Source: Billgrantia antri
GTDB taxonomy: Bacteria; Pseudomonadota; Gammaproteobacteria; Pseudomonadales; Halomonadaceae
DNA length: 64,000 bases
Reading direction: 5' to 3'
NCBI RefSeq assembly: GCF_019430905.1
Contig: NZ_JAHYCA010000008.1
Coordinates: forward strand, 62,001-126,000
Under the pieces are notes generated by a model. It ran no database searches. It saw only the letters and a list, made by a program, of their open reading frames with translations, and was not told where the DNA came from. This document shows, one piece after another, positions 3,274 to 60,081 of the stretch. Every line of letters starts with the position of its first letter. The stretch's first letter is position 1. The translations under genes and the position numbers were made by a program.

Positions 3274-3810
3274 ATGGGCGTGGAACCCTCGCGGCGGGCG
3301 CTGCTCAAGGGGCGCCTCGAATACCCCTCTGTGCTGCGGCCACCCTGGGCCCGTGACGAGCCAAAATTTCTGGGAAATTGCAGCCAGTGTGGCGACTGTT
3401 TCCAGGCCTGCGAAACCGAGATTATCGTGCGCGATGCGGCCGGTTTTCCGCAGGTTGACTTCCGGCTGGGCGAGTGCACTTTCTGTCGTGCCTGCGTCGA
3501 AGCCTGCGAGGAAGACGCCTTTCGCGACCCCGAGCGCGACCACCCTTGGCGACACGTTGCGGCCATCGGGCCGGCATGCCTGGGGCCGCAGGGAGTCTAC
3601 TGCCGCAGCTGTGGCGAGAGCTGCAAAGCCGGCGCGATCCACTTCTCTTTCAATGCCCAGCGCGTGCCGGAACCCACGGTCGACAGCGAGGCGTGCAACG
3701 GCTGCGGCGCCTGCGTATCGGTATGCCCCACCCAGGCGGTAGCGATCGACCCGCCGAGCACGAGTCATTCCCCCCGCCTACAGACCGCCCGCTTTGAGGA
3801 GGAGACATGA
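3274..3810 (+). CDS. napF: Ferredoxin-type protein NapF
   Basis: NapF is a cytoplasmic iron-sulfur protein that interacts with NapA, probably in cofactor loading before export. The 178-residue protein shows three CxxCxxC-type clusters: CSQCGDCFQAC, CTFCRACVEAC and CNGCGACVSVC, plus further cysteines in YCRSCGESC. The N terminus MGVEPSRRALLKG is typical. A GGAG sequence sits 8 bases before the ATG. Its stop overlaps the napD start by four bases, indicating translational coupling. Confidence 0.93.
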   Translation: MGVEPSRRALLKGRLEYPSVLRPPWARDEPKFLGNCSQCGDCFQACETEIIVRDAAGFPQVDFRLGECTFCRACVEACEEDAFRDPERDHPWRHVAAIGPACLGPQGVYCRSCGESCKAGAIHFSFNAQRVPEPTVDSEACNGCGACVSVCPTQAVAIDPPSTSHSPRLQTARFEEET

Positions 3811-4103
3811 ACGCTCAGGTGCATATCTCGAGCCTGATCGTGCAGCTTCAGCCGGAGCGCATCGAGGAGGTCAGCCAGCACTGTCAGGCCCATCCGGGCG
3901 TCGAGGTCCACGCCAAGGACCCGTGCGGCAAGATGGTGCTGGTTCTGGAGACGGCGGGACAGCGTGAGATCGTGACATTCATTGAAGGGTTGCAGCAGGC
4001 GCCCGGCGTGCTGTCGGTGAGCCTGGTCTATCACCATGCGGAGAGCGCCGACGAACTGGACAGGGAGATGGAGGAGATGAGCTATGACGCTGACGCGACG
4101 TGA
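3807..4103 (+). CDS. napD: NapD chaperone for periplasmic nitrate reductase
   Basis: NapD binds the twin-arginine signal peptide of NapA and holds it back until the cofactor is inserted. The 98-residue ferredoxin-fold protein has the usual VHISSLIVQ start, [19 protein letters not shown] core and [11 protein letters not shown] end. It overlaps napF by four bases and its last 20 bases overlap napA, so all three are translationally coupled in a tight operon. Confidence 0.92.
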
Positions 4104-6579
4104 CTTCATCAAGGCCACGGCGGCGACCACGGCCACCGCGGCGGCAGGGATCAGCACAACCGGCCAGGCACAGAACGTGGTTACCGACGCCAGCCAGTCG
4201 CAGTTGAAGTGGTCCAAGGCGCCGTGCCGCTTCTGCGGCGTGGGCTGCGGGGTCAACGTGGCGACGCGCGACAACCAGGTGGTGGCCACCCACGCCGATA
4301 TCAACGCCCCGGTCAATCGCGGCGTCAACTGCATCAAGGGCTACTTCCTGTCCAAGATCATGTATGGCGAGGACCGCCTGACCCAGCCGCTGCTGCGCAA
4401 GCGCAACGGCGTCTACGACAAGGAGGGCGAGTTCACCCCGGTGAGCTGGGACGAGGCCTTCGACGTCATGGCCGACAAGTACAAGGCCGTGCTGCGCGAG
4501 AAGGGCCCCCAGGGCATCGGCATGTTCGGCTCCGGCCAGTGGACGGTGTGGGAGGGCTATGCCGCCAACAAGCTGATGAAGGCGGGCTTCCGCTCCAACC
4601 ATATCGATCCCAATGCGCGCCACTGCATGGCCTCGGCAGTGGCCGGATTCATCCGCACCTTCGGCATGGATGAACCGATGGGCTGCTACGACGACATCGA
4701 GGCGGCGGATGCCTTCGTGCTGTGGGGCTCCAACATGGCCGAGATGCACCCCATCCTGTGGACGCGTGTGACCGACCGCCGACTCTCGGCGCCACACGTC
4801 AAGGTAGCGGTGCTCTCGACCTTCGAGCATCGCTCATTCGAACTGGCCGACATGCCGATGGTGTTCACGCCCCAGGCCGACCTGGCGATCCTCAACTACA
4901 TCCAGCGCTACATCATCGAAAACGACCGGGTTAACTGGGACTTCGTCAACAAGCACGTACGCTTCAAGGAGGGTAACACCCTGATCGGCTACGGCCTGCG
5001 ACCCGAGCACCGGCTGGAGCTAATGGCGGACAACGCTGCCGACCCGGGCGGTGCCAAGGACATCGACTTCGAGCGCTACCGGGAATTCCTTCAGCAGTAC
5101 GATGCCGACACTGTCACCGAAATCTCGGGTGTGCCCAAGCGGCGGCTCGACGAACTCGCCGAACTCTACGCCGATCCCGACACCCGGGTGATGTCATTCT
5201 GGACCATGGGGTTCAACCAGCACACCCGCGGGGTCTGGGCAAACAACATGATCTACAACATCCACCTGCTGACCGGAAAGATCTCGACGCCGGGCAACAG
5301 CCCCTTCTCACTGACCGGGCAGCCCTCGGCCTGCGGCACCGCACGCGAGGTAGGCACCTTCGCCCACCGCCTGCCGGCGGATATGGTGGTGAACAACCCA
5401 GGGCACCGGGCATTCGCCGAAAAGATCTGGAAGGTACCCGAGGGCACCATCCAGGCACAGCCCGGCGCGCATGCGGTGCTGCAGAACCGCATGCTCAATG
5501 ACGGCGAGATCAATGCCTATTGGGTGCAGTGCAACAACAATGTCCAGGCGGCGGCCAACATGGTCGAGGAGACCTACCCCGGCTACCGCAACCCGGACAA
5601 CTTCATCGTCGTCTCGGATGCCTACCCCACCGTGACCGCAGAACTGGCCGACCTGATTCTGCCTACTGCCATGTGGGTCGAGAAGGAGGGCGCCTACGGC
5701 AACGCCGAGCGGCGTACCCAGTTCTGGCACCAACTGGTCGAAGCACCAGGCGAGGCGCGTTCCGACCTATGGCAGCTGATGGAATTCTCCAAGCGCTTCA
5801 CCACCGACGAGGTGTGGCCCCAGGAGATGCTCGACGCCAACCCTGAGTACAAGGGACGTAGCCTGTTCGACGTGCTGTGGCGCAATGGTCAGGTCGACGC
5901 GTATGCCTTGGAAGAACTCGACGATGAGTACGCCAACCAAGAGGCGGAGCACTTCGGCTTCTACGTCCAGAAAGGGCTGTTCGAGGAGTACGCCAAGTTC
6001 GGCCGCGGCAAGGCCCACGACCTGGCGCCCTTCGATGTCTACCACACGACCACTGGGTTGCGCTGGCCGGTGGTCGACGGCAAAGAGACCCGCTGGCGCT
6101 ATAACGGCGAGTATGACCCTTATGTCGAGGAGGGTCGTGACATTCAGTTCTACGGCCATCCCGACGGCAAGGCGGTGATCTTTGCCGTACCCTACGAGCC
6201 GCCCGCCGAGTCGCCCAACGAGGAGTATCCCATGTGGCTGGTCACCGGCCGGGTGCTCGAGCACTGGCACTCCGGCTCGATGACCCGGCGCGTGCCCGAG
6301 CTGCATCGCGCCTTCCCCCAGGCGGTGGTCTACCTGCATCCCGAGGACGCGCGTCAGCTTGGCGTGCGCCGCGGCAGCGAGGTGCGCATCGTCAGCGCCC
6401 GCGGCGAGATGAACTCCCGTGTCGAGACCCGCGGGCGCAATCGCATGCCCAGGGGGCTGGTGTTCGTGCCCTGGTTCGACGCCAGCCAACTGATCAACAA
6501 GGTCACGCTGGATGCCACCGACCCCATTTCCAAGCAGACGGACTTCAAGAAGTGCGCCTGCCGGATCGAGCCGGTCTAG
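4084..6579 (+). CDS. napA: Periplasmic nitrate reductase catalytic subunit NapA
   Basis: NapA reduces nitrate to nitrite in the periplasm with a bis-MGD molybdenum centre and one [4Fe-4S] cluster. The 831-residue length matches the family. A twin-arginine signal TRRDFIKA starts at residue 4. The cluster ligands are [12 protein letters not shown] followed by the Cys of GVNCIKGY, and the molybdenum Cys lies in NARHCMASA. The C-terminal dinucleotide-binding domain includes [15 protein letters not shown]. It begins inside the end of napD and is followed after 13 bases by napB. No interruption was seen, so nitrate respiration or redox balancing should be functional. Confidence 0.97.
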
Positions 6580-6592
6580 GGAGGGAAGCACG

Positions 6593-7057
6593 ATGCGTAC
6601 TATTACTACCGCTATCGCCATCGCTGTGCTGGCGATCAGCCTGGGAGTGCTCGCCCAGGAGGGCGAACTCGATGCCCTGCGCGGCCACGTGCCGCTGCTC
6701 GAGGAGCGCACTCCCGAACCGCTCTACGACGTGGTGAACGACGACCAGCGGCGAGTCCGCGCCTACCCGATGCAGCCGCCGACCATTCCGCACAAGATCG
6801 ACAACTATCAGGTCGACCTCAACGCCAACCGCTGCATGAGCTGCCACAGCCGGCAGCGGGTCGGCGATACCCAGGCGCCGATGATCAGCGTGACCCACTA
6901 CATGGACCGCGACGGCAACTTCCTCGCCGAACTCTCGCCGCGCCGCTACTTCTGCAATCAGTGCCACGTGCCGCAGACGGAGGCGCCACTGACGGTCGAG
7001 AACCGCTTCGTCGACATTGCCGAAATCCTCCGCCAACCACGCGAGACGGAAGAGTGA
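6593..7057 (+). CDS. napB: Diheme cytochrome c subunit NapB
   Basis: NapB carries electrons from NapC to NapA in the periplasm. The 154-residue product has a cleavable signal (residues 1-22, ending near VLAQ) and exactly two heme-binding motifs, CMSCH and CNQCH, with the usual [10 protein letters not shown] segment before them. The ATG at 6593 follows GGGAGGGAAG at good spacing and gives the signal peptide; an in-frame ATG at 6512 lies within napA. It is followed after 10 bases by napC. Confidence 0.95.
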
Positions 7058-7067
7058 GGTCCGCTGC

Positions 7068-7670
7068 ATGATCCAACGTATCAAGAACCTGCTCTCGGTC
7101 TTCTGGCGTATCTTCAACTCGCCCAGCGGCTACTTCAGCCTGGGGTTCCTTACCGTGGGGGGCTTCATCGGCGGGGTGCTGTTCTGGGGCGGCTTCAACA
7201 CCGCCATGGAGGCGACCAATACTGAGCGGTTCTGTATCAGCTGCCACGAGATGCGCGCCAACGTCTACGAGGAGATCCAGCCCACCATACACTTCACCAA
7301 CCGTTCGGGGGTGCGGGCGGTTTGCTCGGACTGTCACGTGCCGCACGACTGGACCGACAAGATCGCGCGCAAGATGCAGGCCTCGAAGGAGGTATGGGGC
7401 AAGATCTTCGGCACCATCAACACCCGCGAGAAGTTCCTCGACCATCGCCTGGAGATGGCCTCCCGCGAGTGGCGCCGCTTCGAAGCCAACGACTCGTTGG
7501 AGTGCCGCAACTGCCACGACGAGGACGCCATGGACTTCACCCGACAGAGTTCCAGGGCCGCTGATGCGCACCGGCGGGGGTTGATCAACGGCGACGCCAC
7601 CTGCATCACCTGCCACAAGGGCATCGCCCACGAGCTGCCCGACATGGCCGGCGTCGAGGGTTGGGAGTGA
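7068..7670 (+). CDS. napC: Membrane tetraheme cytochrome c NapC
   Basis: NapC is the NapC/NirT-family quinol dehydrogenase that feeds NapB. The 200-residue protein has one N-terminal membrane anchor (about residues 20-42, [19 protein letters not shown]) and four heme motifs in order: CISCH, CSDCH, CRNCH and CITCH. The ATG at 7068 gives the expected N terminus MIQRIKNLL. It is the last gene of the nap operon; no napG or napH is present, as in other napEFDABC systems. Downstream the gene content switches to aromatic catabolism. Confidence 0.95.
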
Positions 7671-7734: not shown

Positions 7735-8691
7735 TCAGTGGCTTGGTAGCAGGCCGGCTTGACTCATCCCCCAGATGGCCACGCTCAGTGTCACGAAAGC
7801 GGCCAGCGTGGCCACCATCAAGGCGGCGGCACTGACGCCTGCCATGCCATAGCGATGACCGAGCAACGGATACACGCTGATCATCGGGGCACAGGCAAAC
7901 AGCAGGGCACCGGCCATCATGGCGGGATCGGCCTGCGGCATCACCAGAAACAGCCCCAGCACTGCCAGTGGATGGAAGATCAGCTTACCAGCGACGATCT
8001 GACCAACATCTGCCAGCATGCCGCGCACCCGCAGGCCGAAAAGGGTACCGCCGATCACGAACAGTGCTGCCGGGCCGGCGGCATTGGCCAGCATGTCGAT
8101 CATTTGAACCAGCGGGCCGGGCAAGGATGTTCCCGTCACGGCCAGTAGCAGCCCTGTCGCCAGGCCGGCCAGGATCGGATTGCGGATCAAGCGCAGGAGG
8201 GTTTTACGCGCCACGCTGCCGATCCCTCTACCGCTCTGGCGCCCGGCCTCGGCCAGGATCAGTGCCGCCGGTATGATCAACAGATTCTCGATCAGAAAAT
8301 TGAGCGCCATGATGACCGCCGCCGGAGAGACGCCAAGCACCATGGCGGCAACGGGATAGCCGATGAAGCCGCTGTTGGAAGCGGACATGCCCAAAGCGTG
8401 CAAGGCGCCTTCACTGAGCGGTTTGCCCTGCAGGCCCACGGTGAGCATTAAGGCAAAAGCGAACACCGCCACCGAGCCCAGGCCATAGGCCAGCAGGTAG
8501 GGAGTATTCAGCACCTGGTCGAGAGGGTTTTGCGTCAGTGCCCGGATAACCAAAGCGGGCAGGGCGAAGTAGAGCACGAAAGTAGCCACGCCTTGCAACT
8601 GCTCCCGGTTCACCAACCGGGCACCCATGGCCAGGTAGCCGGTGCCGATCAGCAGGAAGATCGGCGTGGTGATAGCGAGTATCTCGAGCAT
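7735..8691 (-). CDS. AEC (auxin efflux carrier) family transporter
   Basis: The 318-residue protein is an inner-membrane carrier of the AEC/bile-acid:Na symporter-like group: about ten hydrophobic segments, the N-terminal pattern ITTPIFLLIGTGYLAM, FVLYFALPALVIRAL, and the conserved NSGFIGYPVAAMVLG. Family members move organic anions such as malate or malonate; the substrate here is unknown. It lies 75 bases downstream of pcaR on the same strand, so it may be read from the pcaR promoter, which would link it to aromatic acid or dicarboxylate transport (inference). A GGAG site precedes the ATG at 8691. Confidence 0.85.
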   Translation of the reverse strand: MLEILAITTPIFLLIGTGYLAMGARLVNREQLQGVATFVLYFALPALVIRALTQNPLDQVLNTPYLLAYGLGSVAVFAFALMLTVGLQGKPLSEGALHALGMSASNSGFIGYPVAAMVLGVSPAAVIMALNFLIENLLIIPAALILAEAGRQSGRGIGSVARKTLLRLIRNPILAGLATGLLLAVTGTSLPGPLVQMIDMLANAAGPAALFVIGGTLFGLRVRGMLADVGQIVAGKLIFHPLAVLGLFLVMPQADPAMMAGALLFACAPMISVYPLLGHRYGMAGVSAAALMVATLAAFVTLSVAIWGMSQAGLLPSH

Positions 8692-8766: not shown

Positions 8767-9552
8767 TCAACTGATGGTGGTACGGATATCACGCGCCTTC
8801 TGCTGCAACAGCGGCAGGTACTCCTTCATCAAGGTATCGAGATCCACCCGGGCGGCGTTGGTGCTGATGTTGATGGCGCCCAGCAGCTTGCCGTTGGCGT
8901 CGAAGGCCGGCACGGCGAGCGAGCGCAGCCCTGAATCCAGCTCCTGATCGGCAATGGCGTAGCCTTGCTGGCGCACCTTGAGGATGCACTTCTTCAGTGC
9001 TGACTTGTCGGTCACGGTCTTGTCGGTGTAGCGCGTAAGCGTAACCCGCTCCAGGAAGGCGTCGAGCTCGGCATCGGGAAGCTGGGCCAGCAGAGCACGC
9101 CCCATCGAGGTGTGGGCGGCGGGCAGCCGGGTACCCACGGAGAGGGTGATCGCCATCAGCCGGTGGCGGGCCGAGGAGCGCGCCACGTAGGTGACCTCGT
9201 CGCCGTCGAGCACGCCCAGCGAGGAGGATTCGCCGCTCTCGGCGGTGATGTCCTCCAGCACCTGCTGGATCACGCTACGATAGTTGTTGGCGGAGAGAAA
9301 CGCATAGCCAAGCTGCAGCACCCGCGGGGCCAGTTCGAAGTTGCGGCCCTGCTTGCGCACGTAGCCAAGGGCATGCAGCGTGAGCAGGAAGCGCCGGGCG
9401 CGGGCGCGGTTCATGCCGGTACGGCTGGCGACCTCGCTAAGCGTCATGCGCGGGTGAGCATCGTCAAAGGCCAGGATCACCTCCAGGCCGCTGGCCAGGG
9501 CGGTAACGAAGTCCCGGTCGTCCGGGCTGAGAACCTCTTCCTCGGGTGTCAT
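8767..9552 (-). CDS. pcaR: IclR-family regulator of the pca genes, PcaR/PcaU-like
   Basis: This 261-residue IclR-family protein has an N-terminal winged helix (about residues 15-75, with LSEVASRTGMNRARARRFL) and a C-terminal effector domain (RLPAAHTSMGRALLA, DQELDSGLRSLAVP). IclR proteins of this subgroup (PcaR, PcaU, PobR, CatR) respond to beta-ketoadipate, protocatechuate or related acids. It is divergent from pcaB, and a palindrome TTCG-N5-CGAA lies between them. I chose the ATG at 9552, preceded by GGGAAAG; a TTG 48 bases upstream is less likely. The operator resembles the Pseudomonas PcaR site, which supports PcaR over other IclR proteins. Confidence 0.85.
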   Translation of the reverse strand: MTPEEEVLSPDDRDFVTALASGLEVILAFDDAHPRMTLSEVASRTGMNRARARRFLLTLHALGYVRKQGRNFELAPRVLQLGYAFLSANNYRSVIQQVLEDITAESGESSSLGVLDGDEVTYVARSSARHRLMAITLSVGTRLPAAHTSMGRALLAQLPDAELDAFLERVTLTRYTDKTVTDKSALKKCILKVRQQGYAIADQELDSGLRSLAVPAFDANGKLLGAINISTNAARVDLDTLMKEYLPLLQQKARDIRTTIS

Positions 9553-9612
9553 TTCTTTCCCGTCTTGTCCTTTGTGAGTTGCTCCATCGGAGCCCTTCAA
9601 TCTAGCATAATG

Positions 9613-9711: not shown

Positions 9712-11049
9712 ATGCCCGACGCCCTGCTTCAGCACCCCTTCATGAGCCAAACGGCATTGGCCGAGTGTCATGCCGATTCCATGGTGCAGGCCATGCTGGC
9801 TTTCGAGCTGGCGCTGGCCGAAGTGCAGGAGGCGCGTGGCGCCGTGCCCCAGGGAGCGAGTGCGGAGATGCGCCGTTGCCTGGAAAGTCACACTTTCGAC
9901 TCGGCGGCCATTGCTGCGGGTATTGCCAGCGGCGGCAATGCGGCCATCCCCTTCGTCAAACAGGCGCGCGCGGCGTTGCCCGACGCGCTCAAGCGCTACT
10001 GGCACATGGGCGCCACCAGCCAGGACGTGATCGATTCGGCGCTGATGCTGCTGCTCAAGCCGCGGCTCGCCGCGCTGGATGCGCTGCTGCTGCGCTGCCG
10101 CACGGCAGCGATCACGCTCATGCAGGCCCATGAGCAGACGGTGATGGTGGGGCGCACGCTGATGCAGCAGGCACTGCCGATGACGTTCGGCGTCAAGGTG
10201 GCGCACTGGGCCATTGGCCTGGAGCAGGCGCGTCGCCGCTTGGCTACCGTTGAGCTGCCGGTGCAGTTCGGTGGCGCCGTGGGCGTGCATTCTGGTTTAG
10301 ACGAGCTGGGTCTCGACTTTATGGACGCCTTGGCTGCGCGCCTCGGCCTGAGTGCCCCGGTGCTCCCTTGGCACACCGACCGCCAGCCGATCCATGCGTT
10401 GGGTACGGCATTGGACGCTGCGGCGGGGGCGGCCGAGAAGCTGGCCCTCGATATCGCACTGCTGACCCAGACCGAGGTGGGCGAGGTGGCGGAGCCTTCC
10501 GCTCCGGGCATGGGCGAGTCCTCCTCCATGCCGCACAAGCGTAACCCGGTGCGCTGCGCCATGATCCGTGGCGCGGCGCGGCAGGTGCATGGTCATGCCA
10601 CGGTGCTGCTCAATGCCACCGCCCAGCCGCTGGAGCGGGGCCTTGGCGAATGGCACGCCGAATGGTCGCCGTTGGTCGACAGTGCGCTGCTGCTGGAGGG
10701 GGCACTGGAACAGGCTGCCGTGCTGCTCGAAGGGCTCGAGGTGAATCCCGAGGCGATGCGCCGCAACCTGGCCGCCACTGGCGGCGGCATCATGGCCGAG
10801 CCGGTGTCACGCCTGCTGGCGCCGGTGCTGGGCCAGGATGCCGCCAAGCGAATCAGCGCCGAGGCCGCCGAAACGGCGCGCCTGCAGGGCATTCCCTACA
10901 CCGAGGCGCTCGAGGCGCATGACGAAGTGAAAGCCGAAGTAAACGGCAAGCTCGATGTCGAGGCGCTGCGCCAGGCGACGGACCCCGCCCTATACCTTGG
11001 TAGCAGCCTGGCACAGGTGCGGCGAGCCATGGCCTGGCTGGATGAATAA
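9712..11049 (+). CDS. pcaB: 3-carboxy-cis,cis-muconate cycloisomerase
   Basis: PcaB converts 3-carboxy-cis,cis-muconate, the product of PcaHG, to 4-carboxymuconolactone in the cytoplasm. The 445-residue protein belongs to the fumarase/aspartase superfamily: GATSQDVIDSA (near residue 102) and the signature GMGESSSMPHKRNPV (near residue 265). A GGAG site lies 9 bases before the ATG. Its 3' end (ALYLGSSL and QVRRA) is duplicated as a remnant at 12117-12176 beyond the next gene. A strong hairpin terminator at 11081 follows, so pcaB is probably transcribed alone under PcaR. Confidence 0.95.
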   Translation: MPDALLQHPFMSQTALAECHADSMVQAMLAFELALAEVQEARGAVPQGASAEMRRCLESHTFDSAAIAAGIASGGNAAIPFVKQARAALPDALKRYWHMGATSQDVIDSALMLLLKPRLAALDALLLRCRTAAITLMQAHEQTVMVGRTLMQQALPMTFGVKVAHWAIGLEQARRRLATVELPVQFGGAVGVHSGLDELGLDFMDALAARLGLSAPVLPWHTDRQPIHALGTALDAAAGAAEKLALDIALLTQTEVGEVAEPSAPGMGESSSMPHKRNPVRCAMIRGAARQVHGHATVLLNATAQPLERGLGEWHAEWSPLVDSALLLEGALEQAAVLLEGLEVNPEAMRRNLAATGGGIMAEPVSRLLAPVLGQDAAKRISAEAAETARLQGIPYTEALEAHDEVKAEVNGKLDVEALRQATDPALYLGSSLAQVRRAMAWLDE

Positions 11050-11080: not shown

Positions 11081-11113
11081 GCAAAGGGGAGGCCTGGCCT
11101 CCCCTTTGCTTTT
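11081..11113 (+). terminator. Rho-independent terminator after pcaB
   Basis: Stem GCAAAGGGGAGGCC (11081-11094) pairs with GGCCTCCCCTTTGC (11096-11109), followed by TTTT. It closes pcaB. A related hairpin follows the BKACE gene at 12225. Confidence 0.8.
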
Positions 11114-11160
11114 ATGCGCGCTTGCTGATTTGACGGCGGAGGTTCATGGGGGCTAGATTG

Positions 11161-11192
11161 TTCGTATCGCAAATCTATGTTCGTTATGCGAA
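11161..11192. promoter_or_regulatory. Tandem PcaR-type operators upstream of the BKACE gene
   Basis: Two boxes 19 bases apart: TTCG-TATCG-CAAA at 11161-11173 (one mismatch) and TTCG-TTATG-CGAA at 11180-11192 (perfect arms). They lie 72-103 bases before the ATG at 11264. The same two-box arrangement and spacing occur before pcaI. Confidence 0.7.
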
Positions 11193-11263: not shown

Positions 11264-12094
11264 ATGTCCAATCCCTGCATTATCTGTGTTGCCATCACCG
11301 GCAGCTTGCCGCGCAAGGAGAACTACCCTGCAGTGCCGATTACCCTCGAGGAGCAGATCGAGAGTACCCAGGCGGCGTTTGAAGCCGGGGCCACCATCGC
11401 TCACTGTCATGTGCGCAACGACGACCAGAGCCCGACATCGGACCCCGAAAAGTTCGCCCGGTTGATGGAAGGGCTCAGAAAGCACTGTCCGGGGATGATC
11501 GTTCAGCTTTCTACCGGCGGGCGCTCCGGTGCCGGCCAGGAGCGGGGCGGCATGCTGCCGCTCAGGCCGGATATGGCCAGTCTCTCGGTGGGCTCCAACA
11601 ACTTTCCCAACCGCGTCTACGAGAACCCGCCGCAGTTGGTAGAGTGGCTTGCCGACGAAATGCTGAAGTACGCCATCAAGCCGGAAATCGAAGCCTTCGA
11701 TCTTTCCCACCTCCACCAGGCGGTAAATCTTTCGAAACAGGGCAAGCTCAAGGCGCCGCTCTACGTTCAGTTCGTGATGGGGGTCAAGAACGCCATGCCG
11801 GCGGACAAGCCTACCTTCGACTTCTACATCGAGACCCTGAAGCGCCTGGCCCCGGATGCCCAGTGGTGCGGTGCCGGCATAGGCCCCAACCAGCTTTTAT
11901 TGAATGAATGGTCTATCGCCGCGGGTGGCCACACCCGCACCGGCCTTGAGGACAACGTGCGACTCGACCGCGACACCTTGGCACCTTCCAATGCTGCCCT
12001 GGTCGAGCGTGCCGTGGCACTGTGCGAGAAGTACGAGCGACCGGTGGCCACCTGGCAGCAGGCGCGCGAGATCCTCGGCCTGGCTTCTATCTGA
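11264..12094 (+). CDS. BKACE (DUF849) beta-keto acid cleavage enzyme
   Basis: BKACE enzymes condense a beta-keto acid with acetyl-CoA and cleave it to acetoacetate plus a new acyl-CoA, using a catalytic zinc. The 276-residue protein has family features: AHCHVRNDD with metal-binding His residues, QLSTGG, SLSVGSNNF, and EIEAFDLSHL with an acidic residue. Beta-ketoadipate would give acetoacetate and succinyl-CoA, a bypass of pcaIJ/pcaF; this substrate is inferred from position, since the gene sits between pcaB and pcaI and carries two PcaR boxes. The start at ATG 11264 follows AAGAGG; an in-frame ATG at 11177 overlaps the operator and is unlikely. Flanking sequence is duplicated (see 12117-12333). 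Confidence 0.88.
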   Translation: MSNPCIICVAITGSLPRKENYPAVPITLEEQIESTQAAFEAGATIAHCHVRNDDQSPTSDPEKFARLMEGLRKHCPGMIVQLSTGGRSGAGQERGGMLPLRPDMASLSVGSNNFPNRVYENPPQLVEWLADEMLKYAIKPEIEAFDLSHLHQAVNLSKQGKLKAPLYVQFVMGVKNAMPADKPTFDFYIETLKRLAPDAQWCGAGIGPNQLLLNEWSIAAGGHTRTGLEDNVRLDRDTLAPSNAALVERAVALCEKYERPVATWQQAREILGLASI

Positions 12095-12116: not shown

Positions 12117-12176
12117 GCGGGCCCCGCCTTATACCTTGGTAGCAGCCTGGAGCAGGTGCGTCGTGCTGCCGCCTGA
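12117..12176 (+). pseudogene. Remnant of the pcaB 3' end
   Basis: This short stretch encodes PALYLGSSLEQVRRAAA and a stop, nearly identical to the end of pcaB (DPALYLGSSLAQVRRAMA). Bases around 12122-12160 align with 10983-11021 almost base for base. It is followed, as pcaB is, by a GGGGAGGCC hairpin and a two-box PcaR operator. It marks one edge of the segment carrying the BKACE gene and encodes nothing functional. Confidence 0.8.
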
Positions 12177-12224
12177 CTACAGAGTGATTAATTAGCTGAA
12201 AAGCATCGATTTCCATGTTCCGAA

Positions 12225-12256
12225 CGAGGGGAGGCCTAGCCTCCCCTCGCCTGTTT
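12225..12256 (+). terminator. Terminator-like hairpin after the BKACE gene
   Basis: Stem CGAGGGGAGGC (12225-12235) pairs with GCCTCCCCTCG (12239-12249) around CTA, followed by a short T-rich tail. It is a diverged copy of the hairpin at 11081. Confidence 0.65.
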
Positions 12257-12301
12257 CGTCAGCGGCGCATTTGACGATCGAACGAACTTGGCGTTAACTT
12301 G

Positions 12302-12333
12302 TTCGCATCACAAAACAAAGTTCGCTATTCGAA
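12302..12333. promoter_or_regulatory. Tandem PcaR-type operators upstream of pcaI
   Basis: TTCG-CATCA-CAAA at 12302-12314 and TTCG-CTATT-CGAA at 12321-12333, again 19 bases apart. The second box ends 29 bases before the pcaI ATG, close to where a core promoter would lie. Confidence 0.7.
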
Positions 12334-12362: not shown

Positions 12363-13193
12363 ATGGCCGAATTCCTGAGCCTCCGTGACGCGGTGGCACG
12401 CTATGTCGAAGACGGCGCCACCGTGGCCATGGAGGGCTTTACCCACCTGATTCCCTTTGCCGCCGGTCACGAGGTAATCCGCCAGAAGAAGCGTGACCTG
12501 ACCCTGATCCGCATGACGCCGGACCTGGTCTACGACCAGATGATCGGTGCCGGCTGCGCCCGCAAGGTGATCTTCTCCTGGGGCGGCAACCCCGGCGTGG
12601 GCTCGCTGCACCGCCTGCGCGATGCGGTGGAGAAGGGCTGGCCGCACAAGGTCGAAATCCTCGAGCACAGCCACGCCGCCATGGCCTGCGCCTTCGAGGC
12701 CGGCGCCGCCGGCCTGCCGCTGGCCGTACTGCGCGGCTACGTGGGTAGCGAGCTGCCCAGCGTCAACGACCAGATCAAGTTCATCGAGTGCCCCTTCACC
12801 GGTGAGCGCCTGGCCGCGGTGCCGGCGGTGCGTCCCGACGTTTCCATCGTCCACGCGCAGAAAGCCGACCGCGCCGGCAACGTGCTGGTCGAAGGTATCG
12901 TCGGCGTGCAGAAGGAGGCGGTGCTGGCGGCCAAGCAGAGCATCGTCACCGTCGAGGAGATCGTCGACGATCTGCGTGCCGAGGTCGACTATCACCCCAA
13001 CGCCTGCATCATCCCGGGCTGGGCCATCAGTGCCATCGCCGTGGCCGAGAAGGGCTCGCTGCCCTCCTATGCCCACAGCTACTACCCGCGCAACAACGCT
13101 TTCTACAAGGAGTGGGATGGTATCGCCCGCGACCGCGACACCTTCACCCGGTGGATCGAAGAGAACGTCATGAAAGCAGGGGGGAACGCCTGA
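12363..13193 (+). CDS. pcaI: 3-oxoadipate CoA-transferase, alpha subunit
   Basis: With PcaJ it transfers CoA from succinyl-CoA to beta-ketoadipate. The 276-residue subunit starts MAEFLSLRDAVARYVEDGATVAMEGFTH, typical of family I CoA-transferase A chains. The length is closer to the longer CatI/GctA-like group than to the 230-residue PcaI of some pseudomonads. GGAGAG precedes the ATG at 12363; the in-frame ATG at 12288 lies upstream of the operators. Stop and pcaJ start share one base (TGATG). Context leaves little doubt about the substrate. Confidence 0.9.
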   Translation: MAEFLSLRDAVARYVEDGATVAMEGFTHLIPFAAGHEVIRQKKRDLTLIRMTPDLVYDQMIGAGCARKVIFSWGGNPGVGSLHRLRDAVEKGWPHKVEILEHSHAAMACAFEAGAAGLPLAVLRGYVGSELPSVNDQIKFIECPFTGERLAAVPAVRPDVSIVHAQKADRAGNVLVEGIVGVQKEAVLAAKQSIVTVEEIVDDLRAEVDYHPNACIIPGWAISAIAVAEKGSLPSYAHSYYPRNNAFYKEWDGIARDRDTFTRWIEENVMKAGGNA

Positions 13194-13981
13194 TGAGTAC
13201 CGTCGATAAGGACCTGGACTACACCTCGTCAGAGATGATGACCGTCACCGCGGCCCGTGCCCTGCAGAATGGCATGACCTGCTTCGTCGGCATCGGCCTG
13301 CCCAGTGAGGCGGCCAACCTGGCTCGCCTGACACATGCACCGGACGTGGTGCTGATCTACGAATCCGGCACCCTGCAGACCAAGCCCGACGTGCTGCCGC
13401 TCTCCATCGGCGACGGCGAGCTGGCCGAAACGGCGCTCACCACCGTCTCGGTGCCGGAGATGTTCCGCTACTGGCTGCAGGGCGGCAAGATCGACGTGGG
13501 CTTCCTCGGCACCGCCCAGATCGACCGCTACTGCAACCTCAATACCACCCTGATCGGCGACTACCGCGAGCCCAAGGTGCGCCTGCCTGGCGGCGGCGGT
13601 GCGCCGGAGATTGCGACGAATGCCGGCGAGGTGTTTATCACCCTCAAGCACTCCAAGCGCGCCTTCGTCGACCGGGTCGATTTCGTCACCACCCTGGGCT
13701 TCGGCCGCGACGGCAAGGGCCGCGACGGCGTGCCCAACATCGGCAAGGGGCCGACCCGGGTCATCACCGACCTGTGCGTGATGAAGCCCGACCCCGAGAC
13801 CAAGGAGCTGGTGGTGGTGTCGCTGCACCCCGGCGTGAGCCGCGAGGACGTGATCGAGGCCACCGGCTGGGAGATCCGTTTCGCCGAGACGCTGGAGAGC
13901 ACCCCGGAGCCCTCGGCCCGCGAGCTCGAGGTCCTGCGCGAACTCAAGGACCGTACCGCCCGTGCCCATGCCGGTGCGTAA
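13193..13981 (+). CDS. pcaJ: 3-oxoadipate CoA-transferase, beta subunit
   Basis: This is the partner of PcaI, carrying the catalytic glutamate, which I place in LIYESGTLQTKP (near residue 60) by analogy with family I B chains. The 262-residue protein continues with LPGGGGAPEIA and VTTLGFGRDG. The ATG at 13193 overlaps the pcaI stop by one base and follows GGGGGAAC. A 152-base gap precedes pcaF, in which I see no PcaR box or strong terminator, so pcaIJF are likely one transcript. Confidence 0.9.
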   Translation: MSTVDKDLDYTSSEMMTVTAARALQNGMTCFVGIGLPSEAANLARLTHAPDVVLIYESGTLQTKPDVLPLSIGDGELAETALTTVSVPEMFRYWLQGGKIDVGFLGTAQIDRYCNLNTTLIGDYREPKVRLPGGGGAPEIATNAGEVFITLKHSKRAFVDRVDFVTTLGFGRDGKGRDGVPNIGKGPTRVITDLCVMKPDPETKELVVVSLHPGVSREDVIEATGWEIRFAETLESTPEPSARELEVLRELKDRTARAHAGA

Positions 13982-14133
13982 TTCGCGCCAGAACGGCCTG
14001 CGCTTGGCCATACGGCGTTGAGAGACAGCTCAAAATGCTCATTTACCCATTCGTAAACTCCGCTTTTTCGCTGTCTCTCGCCTTGTCTGGCCATCGCTCG
14101 ACGCGTTCTGGCATCGAATTAAGGAGATAATGT

Positions 14134-15336
<1,203 letters not shown>

Positions 15337-15409: not shown

Positions 15410-16609
15410 ATGGCATTTCTGACCGTCGACGGCCGCAGCGTCGCCTATCGCCTGCTAGGCCCCGAGGCGCTGCCGCTGGTGGTGCTGGCGCATCCGCTGG
15501 GCATGAGCCAGGCGGTGTGGGACGACCTGCTGCCGGCGCTGTTGCCGCGCTACCGCGTGTTGACCTGGGACCTGCCCGGCCACGGTGCCAGCCAGGCCTG
15601 GCCGGCTGAGGGCGGCGGGATCACCCCCGCGGCCCTGGCCGCTGAGGCGCTGGCGCTGGTCGAGAATGCCGGTGCCTCGCGCTTCCACTTCGTCGGCACT
15701 TCCATCGGCGGCGTGGTCGGCCAGCAGCTGATCCGAGAGCATGCCGAACGTCTCTATTCCGTCACCCTGACCAACACCGGGGCGGTGATCGGCAACCAGG
15801 AGCTGTGGACCACCCGTGCCGGCCGCATTCGCCAGGAAGGCCTGGCGGCAATGGCCGAGGAGATCGTGCCGCGCTGGTTTGCACCGGCCTGCTTCGAGGC
15901 CGAGCCGGCGCTCAAGGCCGGCTGGTGTACCCAGATGGGCCGCGGCGACGACGAGTCCTATGCCCGCCTGTGCGAGATGCTCGGCCGGACCGACTTCCGC
16001 GGCAAGCTCAAAGAGCCGCTCGCCGAGCACCCGGGCATCGGCGTGCACCTGCTTGGCGGCAGCGACGACATGGCCACGCCGCCGGAGACCCTGCAGGCCC
16101 TGGCCGCCGAGTGTGGCGGCGTACCGCTGGAGATCCTCGAAGGCATTGCCCACGTGCCCTCGGTGGAAGCGCCCGCCGCCATGGCCAAACGCCTGCTGCT
16201 GTGGATGACCAGCGAGCGTGATGACGTCGGCGAGCATGGCGTGAGCTATGCTGCCGGCCTCGAGACCCGCAAACAGGTGCTCGGCGAGGAACACGTGGCG
16301 CGTTCCACCCAGAACGCCAACAGCCTCGATGCTCCCTTCCAGCAGATGATCACCCGGCTGGCCTGGGGCGAGCTGTGGAGCAACGACGACCTCACCCGCC
16401 GCGAGCGCAGCCTGATCACCACCGGCATCCTCGCCGCCCTAGGCCGCGAAGAGCTGGTACTGCACCTCAAGACCGCCAAGCGCATCGGCCTCAGCGAAGC
16501 GGAGCTGCGCCAGGTGCTGATGCACGTGGCCATCTACGCCGGGGTACCGGCGGCGAACCATGCGTTTGCTTTGGCCAAGAAAGAAGGTTGGGGTGGAGAG
16601 CTGAGTTAA
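15410..16609 (+). CDS. pcaDC: Fused beta-ketoadipate enol-lactone hydrolase / 4-carboxymuconolactone decarboxylase
   Basis: One 399-residue protein joins two consecutive pathway enzymes. Residues 1-260 are an alpha/beta hydrolase (PcaD): HPLGMSQAVWDDL, the nucleophile elbow GTSIGG with Ser near residue 101, an Asp in LLGGSDDMATP, and a terminal His in IAHVPSVEAP. Residues 270-399 are PcaC: YAAGLETRKQVLGEEHV, DLTRRERSLITTGIL, HLKTAKRIGLSEAEL and VAIYAGVPAANHAF. Natural PcaD-PcaC fusions are known in other bacteria. Order in the protein is hydrolase first although decarboxylation happens first. No frame interruption was seen. Confidence 0.93.
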   Translation: MAFLTVDGRSVAYRLLGPEALPLVVLAHPLGMSQAVWDDLLPALLPRYRVLTWDLPGHGASQAWPAEGGGITPAALAAEALALVENAGASRFHFVGTSIGGVVGQQLIREHAERLYSVTLTNTGAVIGNQELWTTRAGRIRQEGLAAMAEEIVPRWFAPACFEAEPALKAGWCTQMGRGDDESYARLCEMLGRTDFRGKLKEPLAEHPGIGVHLLGGSDDMATPPETLQALAAECGGVPLEILEGIAHVPSVEAPAAMAKRLLLWMTSERDDVGEHGVSYAAGLETRKQVLGEEHVARSTQNANSLDAPFQQMITRLAWGELWSNDDLTRRERSLITTGILAALGREELVLHLKTAKRIGLSEAELRQVLMHVAIYAGVPAANHAFALAKKEGWGGELS

Positions 16610-17936: not shown

Positions 17937-18872
17937 ATGCTCAACGCCCGTATCAAGCTGCGCCATCTGCAGGCCTTCCTCGAGGTGGCCCGCCAGCGCA
18001 GCTTCGCCCGGGCCGCCGAGCGGTTGGCGATCACCCAGCCGGGCATCTCCAAGACCATTCGCGAGCTGGAGGAGAGCCTTGGTGCTTCGCTGTTCGAACG
18101 CACGCCCCAGGGCGTGGCGCTGTCTCAGGCGGGCCTGACCCTGCTGCGCCATGCCGGGCCGGCCATGCGCGCGCTGGAAGAGGGCGTGGCGGCGGTGGGC
18201 GACGTGCACCTGGGCGCCCACGACCTGCGCGTGGGCGCGCTCTCCACGGTGGAGAGCCAACTGCTGCCCGAGGCCATCCGCCGCTGGCACGCCGCGCCCA
18301 GCGGGCAGAACGCGGTGGGCGTCAACGTGGTAACCGGCGCCAGCGCCTTCCTGCTTTCGCGGCTGCGCCGCGGCGAGCTGGATCTGGTGGTGGGACGCAT
18401 GACCGAAGCCCGCGAGATCCGCGACCTGGCCTTCGAGCACCTCTACTATGAGCCGCTGCTGCTGTGCGTGCGCCGCGGCCACCCGCTGGCCGGCATCGCG
18501 CCGCTGGAAGCCGCCCGGCTGGGCGACTTCCCTTGGGTGCTGCCGCCTCTGCAGACCACCCTGCGCCAGCAGGTCGACAGCTTCTGCGTGCGCCACTCGC
18601 TGACGCTGATGAGCCAGCGGCTGGAGACGCTCTCGCTGCCCATCAGCCGCCACTACACCCTGGAGAGCGACGCCATCTGGGTCGTGCCCGAAGAGGCCGT
18701 GGCCGAAGACCTGGCGGCGGGGCGGCTGTGTCGCCTCGGCATCGAGCTGGAACCCCGCGGCGGCTCCGTCGGGCTGTGCTACAACGCCAGCATGCAGCCC
18801 ACCCTGGCGTTGGAAGCCTTCTGCGAAGTACTGCGCGAAGTGAGTGCCGAGCGCTGCGCCGGGAGCAGCTGA
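17937..18872 (+). CDS. pcaQ: LysR-family activator of pcaHG, PcaQ
   Basis: This 311-residue LysR protein has an N-terminal helix-turn-helix (residues 8-66: LRHLQAFLEVARQRSFARA, ITQPGISKTIRELEE) and a substrate domain with FLLSRLRRGELDLVVGRM. PcaQ proteins activate protocatechuate genes with 3-carboxymuconate or carboxymuconolactone as signal. Identification rests on its position before pcaHG and on a perfect ATAACC-N4-GGTTAT palindrome downstream of the gene at 18899, matching the PcaQ site reported in Sinorhizobium (ATAACC-N4-GGTTAA). It is unusual in that it is transcribed in the same direction as its target. Confidence 0.87.
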   Translation: MLNARIKLRHLQAFLEVARQRSFARAAERLAITQPGISKTIRELEESLGASLFERTPQGVALSQAGLTLLRHAGPAMRALEEGVAAVGDVHLGAHDLRVGALSTVESQLLPEAIRRWHAAPSGQNAVGVNVVTGASAFLLSRLRRGELDLVVGRMTEAREIRDLAFEHLYYEPLLLCVRRGHPLAGIAPLEAARLGDFPWVLPPLQTTLRQQVDSFCVRHSLTLMSQRLETLSLPISRHYTLESDAIWVVPEEAVAEDLAAGRLCRLGIELEPRGGSVGLCYNASMQPTLALEAFCEVLREVSAERCAGSS

Positions 18873-18914: not shown

Positions 18915-19003
18915 GAGGGGTGCCCGAGTCGTCAATTGGCGGGCCTTTGGCGAGAGGTCACACTGGGCGGGACAAGACCACTCTCCCCAAGAGACGACAC
19001 GCC

Positions 19004-19744
19004 ATGCAAGATCACAACAAGCGCTTCGTGGAGCGCGACCGTAACTGGCATCCCCCGGCCTACGCCCCCGGCTACAAGACCAGCGTGCCCCGCTCGCCGC
19101 AGCAGGCCCTGGCCAGCATGCAGCAAGCCACCGCTTCCGAACTCACCGGCCCGGACTTCCGCCACCTGCGCATGGGCCCCCACGACAACGACCTGCTGCT
19201 CAACTTCCGTGAAGACCCCGCGCTGGCGGGCGCGGCCGGCCTGCCGGTCGGCGAGCGCATCATCATGTTCGGTCGCGTGATCGACCAGTTCGGCAAGCCG
19301 GTGCCACACACCCTGGTCGAGATGTGGCAGGCCAACGCCGGCGGGCGCTACCGCCACAAGAACGACCGCTACCTCGCCCCGCTCGACCCCGGGTTCGGCG
19401 GCGTGGGCCGTACCCTGACCGACGAGCAGGGCTGGTACCGCTTCCGCACCATCAAGCCCGGCCCGTATCCCTGGCCCAACGACCCCAACAGCTGGCGCCC
19501 CTCGCACATTCACGTCTCGGTGATGGGCCCCTCGATCTCCACCCGCCTGATCACCCAGATGTACTTCGAGGGTGATCCGCTGATTCCGCTGTGCCCCATC
19601 GTCCACACCATCAAGGACCCGGCCGCGGTCGAGACCATGATCGGACGCCTCGACATGGCACATAGCCGGCCTATGGACTGCCTGGCCTATCGCTTCGACC
19701 TGGTGGTACGCGGCGAACTGCAGACATTCTTCGAAAATCAGTGA
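19004..19744 (+). CDS. pcaH: Protocatechuate 3,4-dioxygenase beta subunit
   Basis: PcaH carries the Fe(III) site of the intradiol dioxygenase that opens protocatechuate to 3-carboxymuconate. The 246-residue protein shows [19 protein letters not shown], the Tyr-containing [15 protein letters not shown] and the His ligands of RPSHIHVSV, in the order known for the Tyr-Tyr-His-His site. The ATG at 19004 is chosen for the usual [20 protein letters not shown] start; an in-frame ATG at 18920 overlaps the promoter region. PcaG follows after 13 bases. Confidence 0.96.
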
Positions 19745-19757
19745 GGAGGGAACAGAG

Positions 19758-20390
19758 ATGAAACAGCCAAACAGCGTTCCCACCAGCGAACTGATGCTGC
19801 GCGAGACCGCCTCCCAGACCGCCGGGCCCTACGTGCACATCGGCCTGGCCCTGGCCGCCGCGGGCAACCCGACCCGCGACGAAGAGATCTGGAACGAGAT
19901 GGCCAAGCCCGGCGCCGAGGGCGAGCTGATCGAAGTCGTCGGTACCGTGATCGACGGCAACGGCGACCTGGTGCGCGACGCCTTCCTCGAAGCCTGGCAG
20001 GCCGACGCCAACGGCGTCTACCAGCCCGAGTTCGACCTCAAGAAGCCGTTCAACAGCTTCGGGCGCACCGCCACCACCTTCGACCACGGCAGCGAATGGT
20101 CGCTGAAGACCGTCAAGCCAGGCCCGGTGGCTCACCCCAACGGCCAGCTCATGGCGCCGCACATCAACCTGGCGATCTTCGCCCGCGGCATCAACATCCA
20201 GCTTCAGACCCGTCTCTACTTCGAGGACGAAGCCGAGGCCAACGCCGCCTGCCCGGTGCTCTCGCGCATCGAATCGCCGACCCGCCGCCAGACCCTCATC
20301 GCCAAGCGCGAAGAGGCCGACGGCAAGGTACGCTACCGCCTCGACATCAGGCTGCAGGGCGAAGGCGAGACGGTGTTCTTCGATTTCTGA
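19758..20390 (+). CDS. pcaG: Protocatechuate 3,4-dioxygenase alpha subunit
   Basis: This is the structural partner of PcaH in the dioxygenase. The 210-residue protein opens with LMLRETASQTAGPYVHIGLA and has the intradiol-fold segments EAWQADANGVYQ and HINLAIFARGINIQLQTRLYF, without the full iron ligand set, as normal for alpha chains. A strong GAGGAGGGAA precedes the ATG. A hairpin terminator at 20436 ends the pcaHG transcript. Confidence 0.95.
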   Translation: MKQPNSVPTSELMLRETASQTAGPYVHIGLALAAAGNPTRDEEIWNEMAKPGAEGELIEVVGTVIDGNGDLVRDAFLEAWQADANGVYQPEFDLKKPFNSFGRTATTFDHGSEWSLKTVKPGPVAHPNGQLMAPHINLAIFARGINIQLQTRLYFEDEAEANAACPVLSRIESPTRRQTLIAKREEADGKVRYRLDIRLQGEGETVFFDF

Positions 20391-56923: not shown

Positions 56924-57892
56924 TCAGAGGTCCAGCACCAAGACCTTGCTTTTGGCTCGTGAGCAACAGGGGGTGAACTGGTCGTTGGCGGCGTGCTCGT
57001 CGTCGTCCAGGTAGAGGTCGCGGTGGTCGGGCTCGCCCTCGAGCACCCGGGTCAGGCAAGTACCGCAGACCCCCTGTTCGCAGGAGACCATGATCTCGAT
57101 GCCGTTCTCGGCGAGCACCTGGTGCACCGTCTTGTCGACGGGCACGGTGAAGCTGGCGCCGCTGCTGGCGATCTTGACCTCGAAGCTGCCGTCGTCGCTG
57201 GTGTCGGCCACGGCGCCGGCGAAGTACTCGGTGTGCAGCTGATGGCTAGCCCAGCCATGGGCCTTGCAGGTCGCCAGCACGAAGTCGATAAAGCCCTTCG
57301 GGCCGCAGATATAGATCTGGGTCCTGGGGTCGGGGGTGCCGACCAGGGGCTCCAGGTCGAGCTTCTGTTCGGGCTCGCCGTCATCGAAGTGAAAATGCAC
57401 GCGCTCGGCGAAGGTTCCCTGGCGAATGCGCTCGAGAAACGCCGTGCGCTCGGCGGAGCGCGTGCAGTAGTGCATCTCGAAGTCGGCGTCGGTGTGCGCC
57501 AGGCGTTCGGCCATGCACAGGATCGGCGTCACGCCGATGCCGCCTGCGAACAGCAGGGTGCGCTTGGCGTGCTCCAGCGGGAAGTGGTTCTTGGGTGCGC
57601 TGATCTGGATCAAGTCGCCCACCTGAATCTCCTCGTGCATCGCCACCGAGCCTCCGCGTGAGGTCGGGTCGCGCAGTACGCCGATCAGGTAGCGGTCACG
57701 CTCTTCGGGATGGTTGCACAGCGAGTACTGCCTGATGAGCCCCGGCTTGATCTGCACATCGACATGCGCCCCGGCGCTGAAAGCCGGCAGCGGCCGGCCG
57801 TGGGGGTCGGCAAGCTCGAAGGTGGCGATATCCCGGGCTTCGTCGTGACGCGCCTTGACCTCGACTATCAGCGAAAGGGGCGTGCCGCTCAT
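56924..57892 (-). CDS. vanB: Vanillate O-demethylase reductase subunit
   Basis: VanB passes electrons from NADH to the VanA oxygenase. The 322-residue class IA reductase has the flavin-binding IRQYSLCNHPEERDRY, the NAD segment LLFAGGIGVTPILCMAERL, YICGPKGFIDFVL, and a C-terminal [2Fe-2S] domain with MVSCEQGVCGTCLTRVLEG and TPCC. Its start overlaps the vanA stop by four bases. It is transcribed with vanA and the downstream TRAP binding protein. Confidence 0.94.
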   Translation of the reverse strand: MSGTPLSLIVEVKARHDEARDIATFELADPHGRPLPAFSAGAHVDVQIKPGLIRQYSLCNHPEERDRYLIGVLRDPTSRGGSVAMHEEIQVGDLIQISAPKNHFPLEHAKRTLLFAGGIGVTPILCMAERLAHTDADFEMHYCTRSAERTAFLERIRQGTFAERVHFHFDDGEPEQKLDLEPLVGTPDPRTQIYICGPKGFIDFVLATCKAHGWASHQLHTEYFAGAVADTSDDGSFEVKIASSGASFTVPVDKTVHQVLAENGIEIMVSCEQGVCGTCLTRVLEGEPDHRDLYLDDDEHAANDQFTPCCSRAKSKVLVLDL

Positions 57893-59123: not shown

Positions 59124-59165
59124 GTCCGAATCAACAAGAATGTGCAAGAGCATCAAGGAGATCGG

Positions 59166-60028: not shown

Positions 60029-60041
60029 TTCGTATAGCGAA
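60029..60041. promoter_or_regulatory. PcaR-type operator upstream of the TRAP transporter
   Basis: TTCG-TATAG-CGAA, with a degenerate box (CCGA-TAATA-CGAA) starting 19 bases upstream at 60010. It lies 40 bases before the binding-protein ATG and about 48 kb from the pca operators. Confidence 0.65.
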
Positions 60042-60081
60042 CAATCGATATGTTCATTACAACGATCTCCTGGAGGCACCC

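Follow-up and report, generated by a model that had tools for sequence, protein, structure and literature searches.

A predicted beta-ketoadipate-cleaving BKACE gene beside pcaIJF in the pca cluster of Billgrantia antri and its distribution in the Halomonadaceae

The window, i.e. the whole stretch of 64,000 nucleotides from Billgrantia antri that was analysed, carries a complete pca cluster in the order PcaR, PcaB, BKACE, PcaI, PcaJ, PcaF, PcaDC fusion, MFS transporter, PcaQ, PcaH and PcaG. The features of this region are the following (window coordinates, strand, assignment and its basis).

8767-9600, minus: PcaR, IclR family, presumably acting on both operators; NCBIfam TIGR02431, 302 bits, cut-off 284.75
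9712-11049, plus: pcaB; best NCBIfam matches PRK09053 (364.3 bits) and TIGR02426 (314.3 bits), both below cut-off
11081-11109, plus: intrinsic-terminator-like hairpin 3' of pcaB; three in the region, shuffle mean 1.6
11130-11159, plus: weak sigma-70-like promoter of BKACE, TTGACG-18-TAGATT; one found, shuffle mean 0.4
11160-11192, plus: PcaR/PcaU-type operator of BKACE, by pattern search
11264-12094, plus: BKACE, predicted 3-oxoadipate:acetyl-CoA acetyltransferase (beta-ketoadipate cleaving); NF053568, PF05853, PDB relatives
12118-12187, plus: remnant of an older pcaB 3' end (insertion scar, end approximate); aligns to the pcaB tail
12225-12249, plus: second copy of the terminator-like hairpin, by hairpin search
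12301-12333, plus: PcaR/PcaU-type operator of pcaIJF, by pattern search
12363-13193, plus: pcaI, CoA-transferase subunit A of the glutaconate CoA-transferase-like type; PF01144, 38.2 bits and below the TIGR02429 cut-off
13193-13981, plus: pcaJ; PF01144, 46.7 bits and below the TIGR02428 cut-off
14134-15336, plus: pcaF; TIGR02430, 680.5 bits, cut-off 597
15410-16609, plus: pcaDC fusion (PcaL); NF051488, 382.4 bits, slightly below the cut-off of 390
17937-18872, plus: PcaQ regulator; TIGR02424, 331.9 bits, cut-off 303.8
18998-20390, plus: pcaH and pcaG (protocatechuate 3,4-dioxygenase); ORFs named by reading and position

PcaB, PcaI, PcaJ and PcaDC score below the curated cut-offs and were named by best match and context. 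The best PDB match of PcaI is 1poi. In a pca operon annotated for Pseudomonas veronii, a 71% homologue is flanked by an IclR regulator gene and pcaF, and the assignment as pcaI was therefore accepted. PcaI and PcaJ of this type (12363-13981) are missed by the curated models, and automatic annotation may call such pca operons incomplete. Next to pcaR, both here (7735-8691, minus strand) and in many Halomonas loci, lies a gene that is weakly auxin-efflux-carrier-like (below the curated cut-off) and possibly part of the pca regulon. The ORFs at 3274-7670, immediately 5' of the pca cluster, read as a periplasmic nitrate reductase (nap-like) cluster, named from their translations.

The BKACE gene is intact, with an ATG at 11264 preceded by AAGAGG, a stop at 12094 and 276 encoded amino acids on the plus strand. 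Another in-frame ATG, at 11177 within the operator, is probably not the true start. The protein scores 313.4 bits with Pfam PF05853 (cut-off 24.8) and is the sole match to this family in the genome at E 0.001. An earlier note on this DNA had placed a DUF849/BKACE gene between pcaB and pcaIJ; gene, family and neighbours are as it described. The BKACE family reportedly goes back to Bastard et al. 2014, and the crystal structures 3fa5, 3chv and 3no5 (DUF849) are near relatives.

Within the family, the protein reaches 495.8 bits with NF053568, the equivalog model for 3-oxoadipate:acetyl-CoA acetyltransferase (cut-off 350), and this score makes beta-ketoadipate its likely substrate. We take the modelled reaction to be EC 2.3.1.318, with a type enzyme from Cupriavidus necator. 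Kce, the enzyme of lysine fermentation, belongs to the same family and its catalytic residues align, but the window protein scores only 254 bits with the curated Kce model (cut-off 382). In an alignment of 81 homologues (the window and 80 loci), the residues H47, H49, S83, R225, E229 and D230, presumably the positions of the zinc ligands and catalytic residues of Kce, are kept in 81 of 81. The position of the substrate-binding Glu of Kce, which we assume to contact the substrate amino group, is Leu in 50 and Val in 31 homologues (L15 in the window). R87 is present in all 81 where Kce has Ala, and may contact the second carboxylate of the substrate. The label "3-keto-5-aminohexanoate cleavage", found on 23 of the 25 plasmid matches listed and common in public records of such BKACE genes, is misleading. 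According to a passage of PMC4922564, beta-ketoadipate is part of group G3 of the published BKACE grouping, and negatively charged substrates form G4. That the enzyme may act on beta-ketoadipate, as the earlier note proposed, is supported by the curated family, the conserved catalytic residues and the comparative genomics described below.

Both BKACE and pcaIJF are preceded by a 33-bp composite site, GTTCGNATN11GTTCGNNATNCGAA. This pattern was built from 11160-11192 and 12301-12333, whose zero mismatches are a matter of construction; its real tests are its absence elsewhere in the genome and its presence 5' of stand-alone BKACE genes in other genomes. With up to three mismatches, no third composite site was found in the 4.39-Mb genome beyond these two (which recur on the other strand), while the backward pattern gave one match genome-wide and window shuffles gave none. 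A part of PMC8222616 assigns to this regulator group the inverted repeat GTNCG-N5-6-CGNAC, to which PcaU adds an external direct half-site. The repeat is exact in the pcaI site and has CGAAA for CGAAC in the BKACE site; the external GTTCG is found in both. The tandem PcaR operators seen in the earlier note are thus better described as one composite site, inverted repeat plus external GTTCG direct half-site as for PcaU, and it is the claim of an operator of its own that stands. The BKACE site lies directly behind the promoter-like element. As a passage of PMC12455658 reports an operator at or downstream of the -10 for PcaR of Pseudomonas stutzeri, this position would suggest, by analogy, that PcaR represses BKACE.

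A perfect core PcaR-like site, GTTCGCTATACGAA, is also found at 60029-60042 (minus strand), approximately 40 nt 5' of an ORF (60082-61110) that reads as a TRAP-type solute-binding protein. Its neighbours, likewise named from reading the ORFs, are a GntR-like gene (59142-59843) and a vanA-looking Rieske oxygenase gene (57889-58971).

In relatives, a site was accepted with at most four mismatches, the best of 30 plain shuffles per region having 4 to 7. By this measure an operator lies 5' of BKACE in 9 of 29 Halomonadaceae loci and in 4 of 9 further loci; among these 13 matches, the one in L121 is on the other strand, and those in L039, L047 and L121 (3-4 mismatches) are just 1-2 better than the best of 30 shuffles. 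Eight operator-bearing loci (L039, L040, L043, L044, L046, L047, L048 and L125) hold a stand-alone BKACE gene: tblastn detected no pcaB, pcaIJF, pcaL or pcaHG on the fetched stretches, some of which are short. The stretch of L044 has a PcaR gene. Judged by the operators of these eight genes, BKACE appears to be a member of a PcaR-type regulon even when it stands alone. Of the loci without operator (20 and 5, respectively), 16 and 5 have BKACE behind a same-strand pca gene. The stand-alone genes of L045, L057 and L058 lack the operator (7-8 mismatches), and L053, also without it, is a short contig.

Some stand-alone genes have neighbours of their own. In L039 (8319-11269), L043, L044 and L047 the gene follows a DASS/Na-sulphate-symporter-like gene, and in L039, L044 and L047 a small Lumazine_bd_2-like protein (PF12893) is encoded 3' of BKACE. 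Such symporter-BKACE loci may serve the uptake of a dicarboxylate, for example beta-ketoadipate. The neighbourhood of BKACE in L045 includes a TauE-type transporter, an SDR gene and a catechol-dioxygenase-like gene.

The 3' side of BKACE preserves a trace of how the gene arrived. Behind its stop codon follow approximately 70 nt of a pcaB 3' end, and then the pcaB terminator and the pca promoter, each for the second time. This scar stretch of 245 nt is identical in 207 of 243 positions to the intact pcaB-pcaI junction of G032, a genome with a 99% identical PcaI and no BKACE over cut-off, versus 164 of 233 positions to the window's own pcaB tail. The Billgrantia loci L032 and L033 show a more decayed trace at the same place, with a 15-nt exact match to their own pcaB tail. 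BKACE and pcaB have dS values of 0.60 and 0.58 in the comparison with L032, versus 0.22 for pcaI, 0.27 for pcaJ, 0.21 for pcaF and 0.28 for pcaL; in the pcaH/pcaG region, L032 is 98% and 100% identical. Similarly, PcaB of the window shares 90-91% identity with its counterparts in G030 and G005 and only 79% and 84% with those in G008 and G032, although the PcaI proteins of the latter two are nearer. Given the scar match to G032 and the high dS of pcaB and BKACE, the simplest reading would be that a pcaB-pcaIJF junction was already in place and took up a pcaB-BKACE block by recombination.

In the BKACE tree, which was midpoint-drawn without placing the root and whose bootstrap is not fully settled, the 30 Halomonadaceae sequences including the window lie on one side of a branch (95/82), beside a Rhodovulum MAG. 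Being unrooted, the tree does not show which of the Rhodobacterales and the Halomonadaceae would be the donor of BKACE and which the recipient. When two distant BKACE paralogues were used as the root, branches reached length 10 and the tree collapsed, and both rows were dropped.

A survey of how widespread the two routes are covered 201 Halomonadaceae genomes, each at least 95% complete and taken from a larger group. BKACE was called over the cut-off, PcaI at E 1e-80 and PcaH at E 1e-60. BKACE is present in 58 genomes, PcaI in 129 (G216 and G267 with partial matches only) and PcaH in 100; BKACE and PcaI occur together in 48, BKACE without PcaI in 10 and PcaI without BKACE in 81. The earlier note called it unusual to have both routes under one regulator. 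As far as co-occurrence is concerned this does not hold, with 48 of 201 genomes having both; what stands is that we found no report, in the open-licence literature, of both behind one operator type.

Nearly all PcaH-bearing genomes (99 of 100) have PcaI, BKACE or both: PcaI alone 59, both 36, BKACE alone 4 and neither 1. The exception, G119, is a genome of 2.7 Mb and 99% completeness, and possibly represents a third solution. Among the 101 genomes without PcaH, 22 have PcaI alone, 12 both, 6 BKACE alone and 61 neither. Where PcaI is missing, BKACE accompanies PcaH, being present in 4 of 5 genomes with and 6 of 67 without PcaH (Fisher p 0.0009, kinship uncorrected); where PcaI is present, no such association is found (36/95 versus 12/34, p 0.84, kinship uncorrected). 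The idea that loss of PcaI is commoner with BKACE among PcaH-bearing genomes was dropped as not significant (4/40 versus 1/60, Fisher p 0.15, kinship uncorrected).

In a named set that overlaps the 201 genomes, 24 of 29 BKACE-bearing Halomonadaceae have PcaI and five, one of them a MAG, do not; in H. gemina and H. fontilapidosi, PcaI of the window type was not found, whereas B. ethanolica has the same layout as the window. PcaI-lacking genomes vary in how their clusters are built. G011 has pcaB-BKACE-pcaL with pcaIJF gone, and G004 and L036 have pcaB-pcaL with BKACE after pcaG; pcaI, pcaJ and pcaF were all not found within the clusters of G004 and G011. L052 and L061 show pcaF-BKACE without pcaIJ. 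In Halomonas lysinitropha (L090), residues 351-399 of PcaF alone are left beside pcaD and BKACE, and the genome has a full PcaF-type thiolase gene at another place. All five PcaI-less genomes of the named set have PcaI/ScoA-family transferases over cut-off, and four of them, that of L090 included, a PcaF-type thiolase over cut-off; these enzymes could in principle handle beta-ketoadipate.

In the MAG locus L131 (G025:C371, approximately 7990-8234, reversed orientation), an intact pcaIJF precedes residues 1-34 of PcaL, which run on into residues 223-273 of BKACE with an overlap; G025 may be the reverse case, with BKACE deleted and pcaIJF kept, the alternative being a misassembly. A BKACE match at G193:C1:3957457-3958218 contains four in-frame stops and is probably a pseudogene; PcaI is present in that genome. 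Apparent in-frame stops of several Vreelandella-type BKACE genes were discarded as such: in the translated L152 the stop is the natural C-terminal one and, judging from translated relatives, this probably applies to the others.

BKACE genes are known from other pca clusters. Passages of PMC8963497 describe Methylobacterium pca clusters that lack pcaIJF and propose a BKACE bypass from beta-ketoadipate to succinyl-CoA; the bypass idea is therefore already published for this genus. In an excerpt of PMC12379598, M. extorquens becomes able to grow on protocatechuate with a plasmid that carries pcaHGBL and kce of M. nodulans together with van genes (kce not isolated). The likeness to the window lies in the BKACE gene inside the cluster. 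Whereas these clusters have no pcaI, pcaJ or pcaF annotated, the window holds all three (12363-15336), shows an insertion scar and has both routes behind operators of one type. For C. necator H16, part of PMC6449761 describes a COG3246 gene of similar tentative role in the CatM/BenM regulon with catBCD. Family and predicted reaction (NF053568) agree, but the window gene belongs to a PcaR-type pca operon beside intact pcaIJF, in contrast to the cat regulon of the H16 gene.

In the Rhodobacterales, the same BKACE family is found among pca genes, adjoining pcaG; unlike the window, none of 7 tested has a PcaR-type operator 5' of BKACE, and many have PcaQ-like neighbours. Paracoccus has pcaD-C-H-G-BKACE and Haematobacter pcaC-H-G-BKACE, each followed by an "adenylosuccinate lyase family" gene in the position of pcaB. 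By tblastn, neither PcaI nor PcaJ matched in any of the 51 non-Halomonadaceae BKACE loci, and two of them (L103 and L106) gave a PcaF-like match. At E 1e-3, PcaI of the window type was not found in 14 of 16 genomes searched (16 of the 51 loci), the matches of the other two being 28% and 33%. Going by scores of TIGR02429, a model that also takes ScoA, classical PcaI would be absent in the alphaproteobacterial BKACE genomes. Haematobacter G100, with a 349-bit TIGR02429 match close to a pcaF match on the same contig, probably owns a classical pcaIJF elsewhere. The locus L073 (contig JAHVJD010000004.1), labelled Nocardioides marinus, is of the roseobacter type and its BKACE groups with Leisingera, which possibly reflects contamination or mislabelling.

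BKACE converts beta-ketoadipate and acetyl-CoA to acetoacetate and succinyl-CoA. Together with succinyl-CoA:3-ketoacid CoA-transferase and thiolase, this yields succinate + acetyl-CoA from beta-ketoadipate + CoA overall, the same as for PcaIJ and PcaF. Since acetoacetate must be activated and thiolysed, the gain of the BKACE route is not energetic; the benefit may rather be one dedicated gene versus three, another CoA donor, or a link to ketone bodies or polyhydroxybutyrate. Candidate transferases are at hand: PcaI/ScoA-family members over the TIGR02429 cut-off, which does not separate PcaI from ScoA, are present in 45 of 46 BKACE genomes searched, the window genome included, which has two such genes besides pcaI.

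Starting from the gene, its family score, the operator, the scar and the distribution, which are direct observations, we propose with a probability of about 0.83 that the window encodes a beta-ketoadipate-cleaving BKACE, repressed by PcaR alongside pcaIJF, which would be a functional equivalent of PcaIJF brought by pcaB-BKACE recombination. The zinc-dependent enzyme would cleave beta-ketoadipate with acetyl-CoA to acetoacetate and succinyl-CoA. PcaR would bind just behind the -10 of the BKACE promoter and repress the gene, simultaneously with the similarly built pcaIJF promoter, until a pathway intermediate accumulates. Acetoacetate would be activated by a housekeeping CoA-transferase and split by thiolase, such that BKACE and the ketone-body enzymes would do the work of PcaIJF with no energetic improvement. 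The block presumably recombined into the pcaB-pcaIJF junction, leaving the old pcaB stub and two promoter copies. More tentatively, and at clearly less than even odds, this may be part of a two-way exchange in the Halomonadaceae under PcaR-type operators. Operator-bearing BKACE blocks would recombine in, both routes would run on different CoA donors (succinyl-CoA versus acetyl-CoA), and either could then be deleted, with ring cleavage tied to the ketone-body pool where BKACE wins.

Other readings have to be weighed. PcaIJ needs succinyl-CoA as donor and BKACE makes it, and so BKACE might prime or rescue the PcaIJ cycle at shortage. The same operator design on BKACE and pcaI, the retention of PcaI in 48 of 58 BKACE-bearing genomes and the signs of purifying selection on both genes would fit. 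However, BKACE without PcaI (10/201) and PcaI without BKACE (81/201) indicate that neither needs the other, and we regard this role as unlikely. It is distinctly improbable that BKACE mainly serves another aromatic-derived beta-keto acid, e.g. a methyl- or chloro-substituted beta-ketoadipate poorly handled by PcaIJ. The equivalog score speaks against it, as does the position of BKACE where pcaIJF is missing (G011) or beside a pcaF stub (L090). Moreover, BKACE occurs both in protocatechuate clusters and in pcaD-like clusters without pcaHG, whose shared product is beta-ketoadipate. Points in its favour are the promiscuity of BKACE enzymes noted in part of PMC4922564, the catechol/chlorocatechol-dioxygenase-like gene near the stand-alone BKACE of L045 (one copy examined) and the 48 genomes with both routes, which could mean different substrates.

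A recent passenger without real flux, kept in the operon by chance, would be in line with the clear scar and with a pcaB-BKACE block more divergent than its neighbours; a dN/dS of 0.045-0.057 between species, intact catalytic residues and an own promoter-like element with operator make this very unlikely. Least tenable is the energetic bypass of the earlier note, in which succinyl-CoA is recovered unspent and CoA-transferase and thiolase are replaced altogether: the BKACE step alone does conserve a thioester and yield succinyl-CoA without transferase, but activating acetoacetate costs one succinyl-CoA (or ATP) before thiolysis, the net equation is unchanged, the window genome holds two candidate transferases besides pcaI, and the saving is real only if acetoacetate is excreted or reduced to 3-hydroxybutyrate without activation.

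In the preferred reading, a PcaR-repressed equivalent of PcaIJF, the enzyme is known and its regulatory and evolutionary setting is new. Searches of the open-licence literature did not turn up an account of the insertion scar, of two routes sharing one operator type, of PcaR-type operators at stand-alone BKACE genes, or of the Halomonadaceae evolutionary series of scar, both routes, BKACE without PcaI, pcaF stub and stand-alone gene. The family includes BKACE-less relatives, scar-bearing genomes with both routes, and genomes whose BKACE locus keeps no more than a stub of the old route, and offers a naturally replicated experiment on the exchange of a central pathway step. It also points to genomes whose main beta-ketoadipate enzyme is probably BKACE. 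For lignin-to-chemicals work, BKACE would be a one-gene alternative to three dedicated genes.
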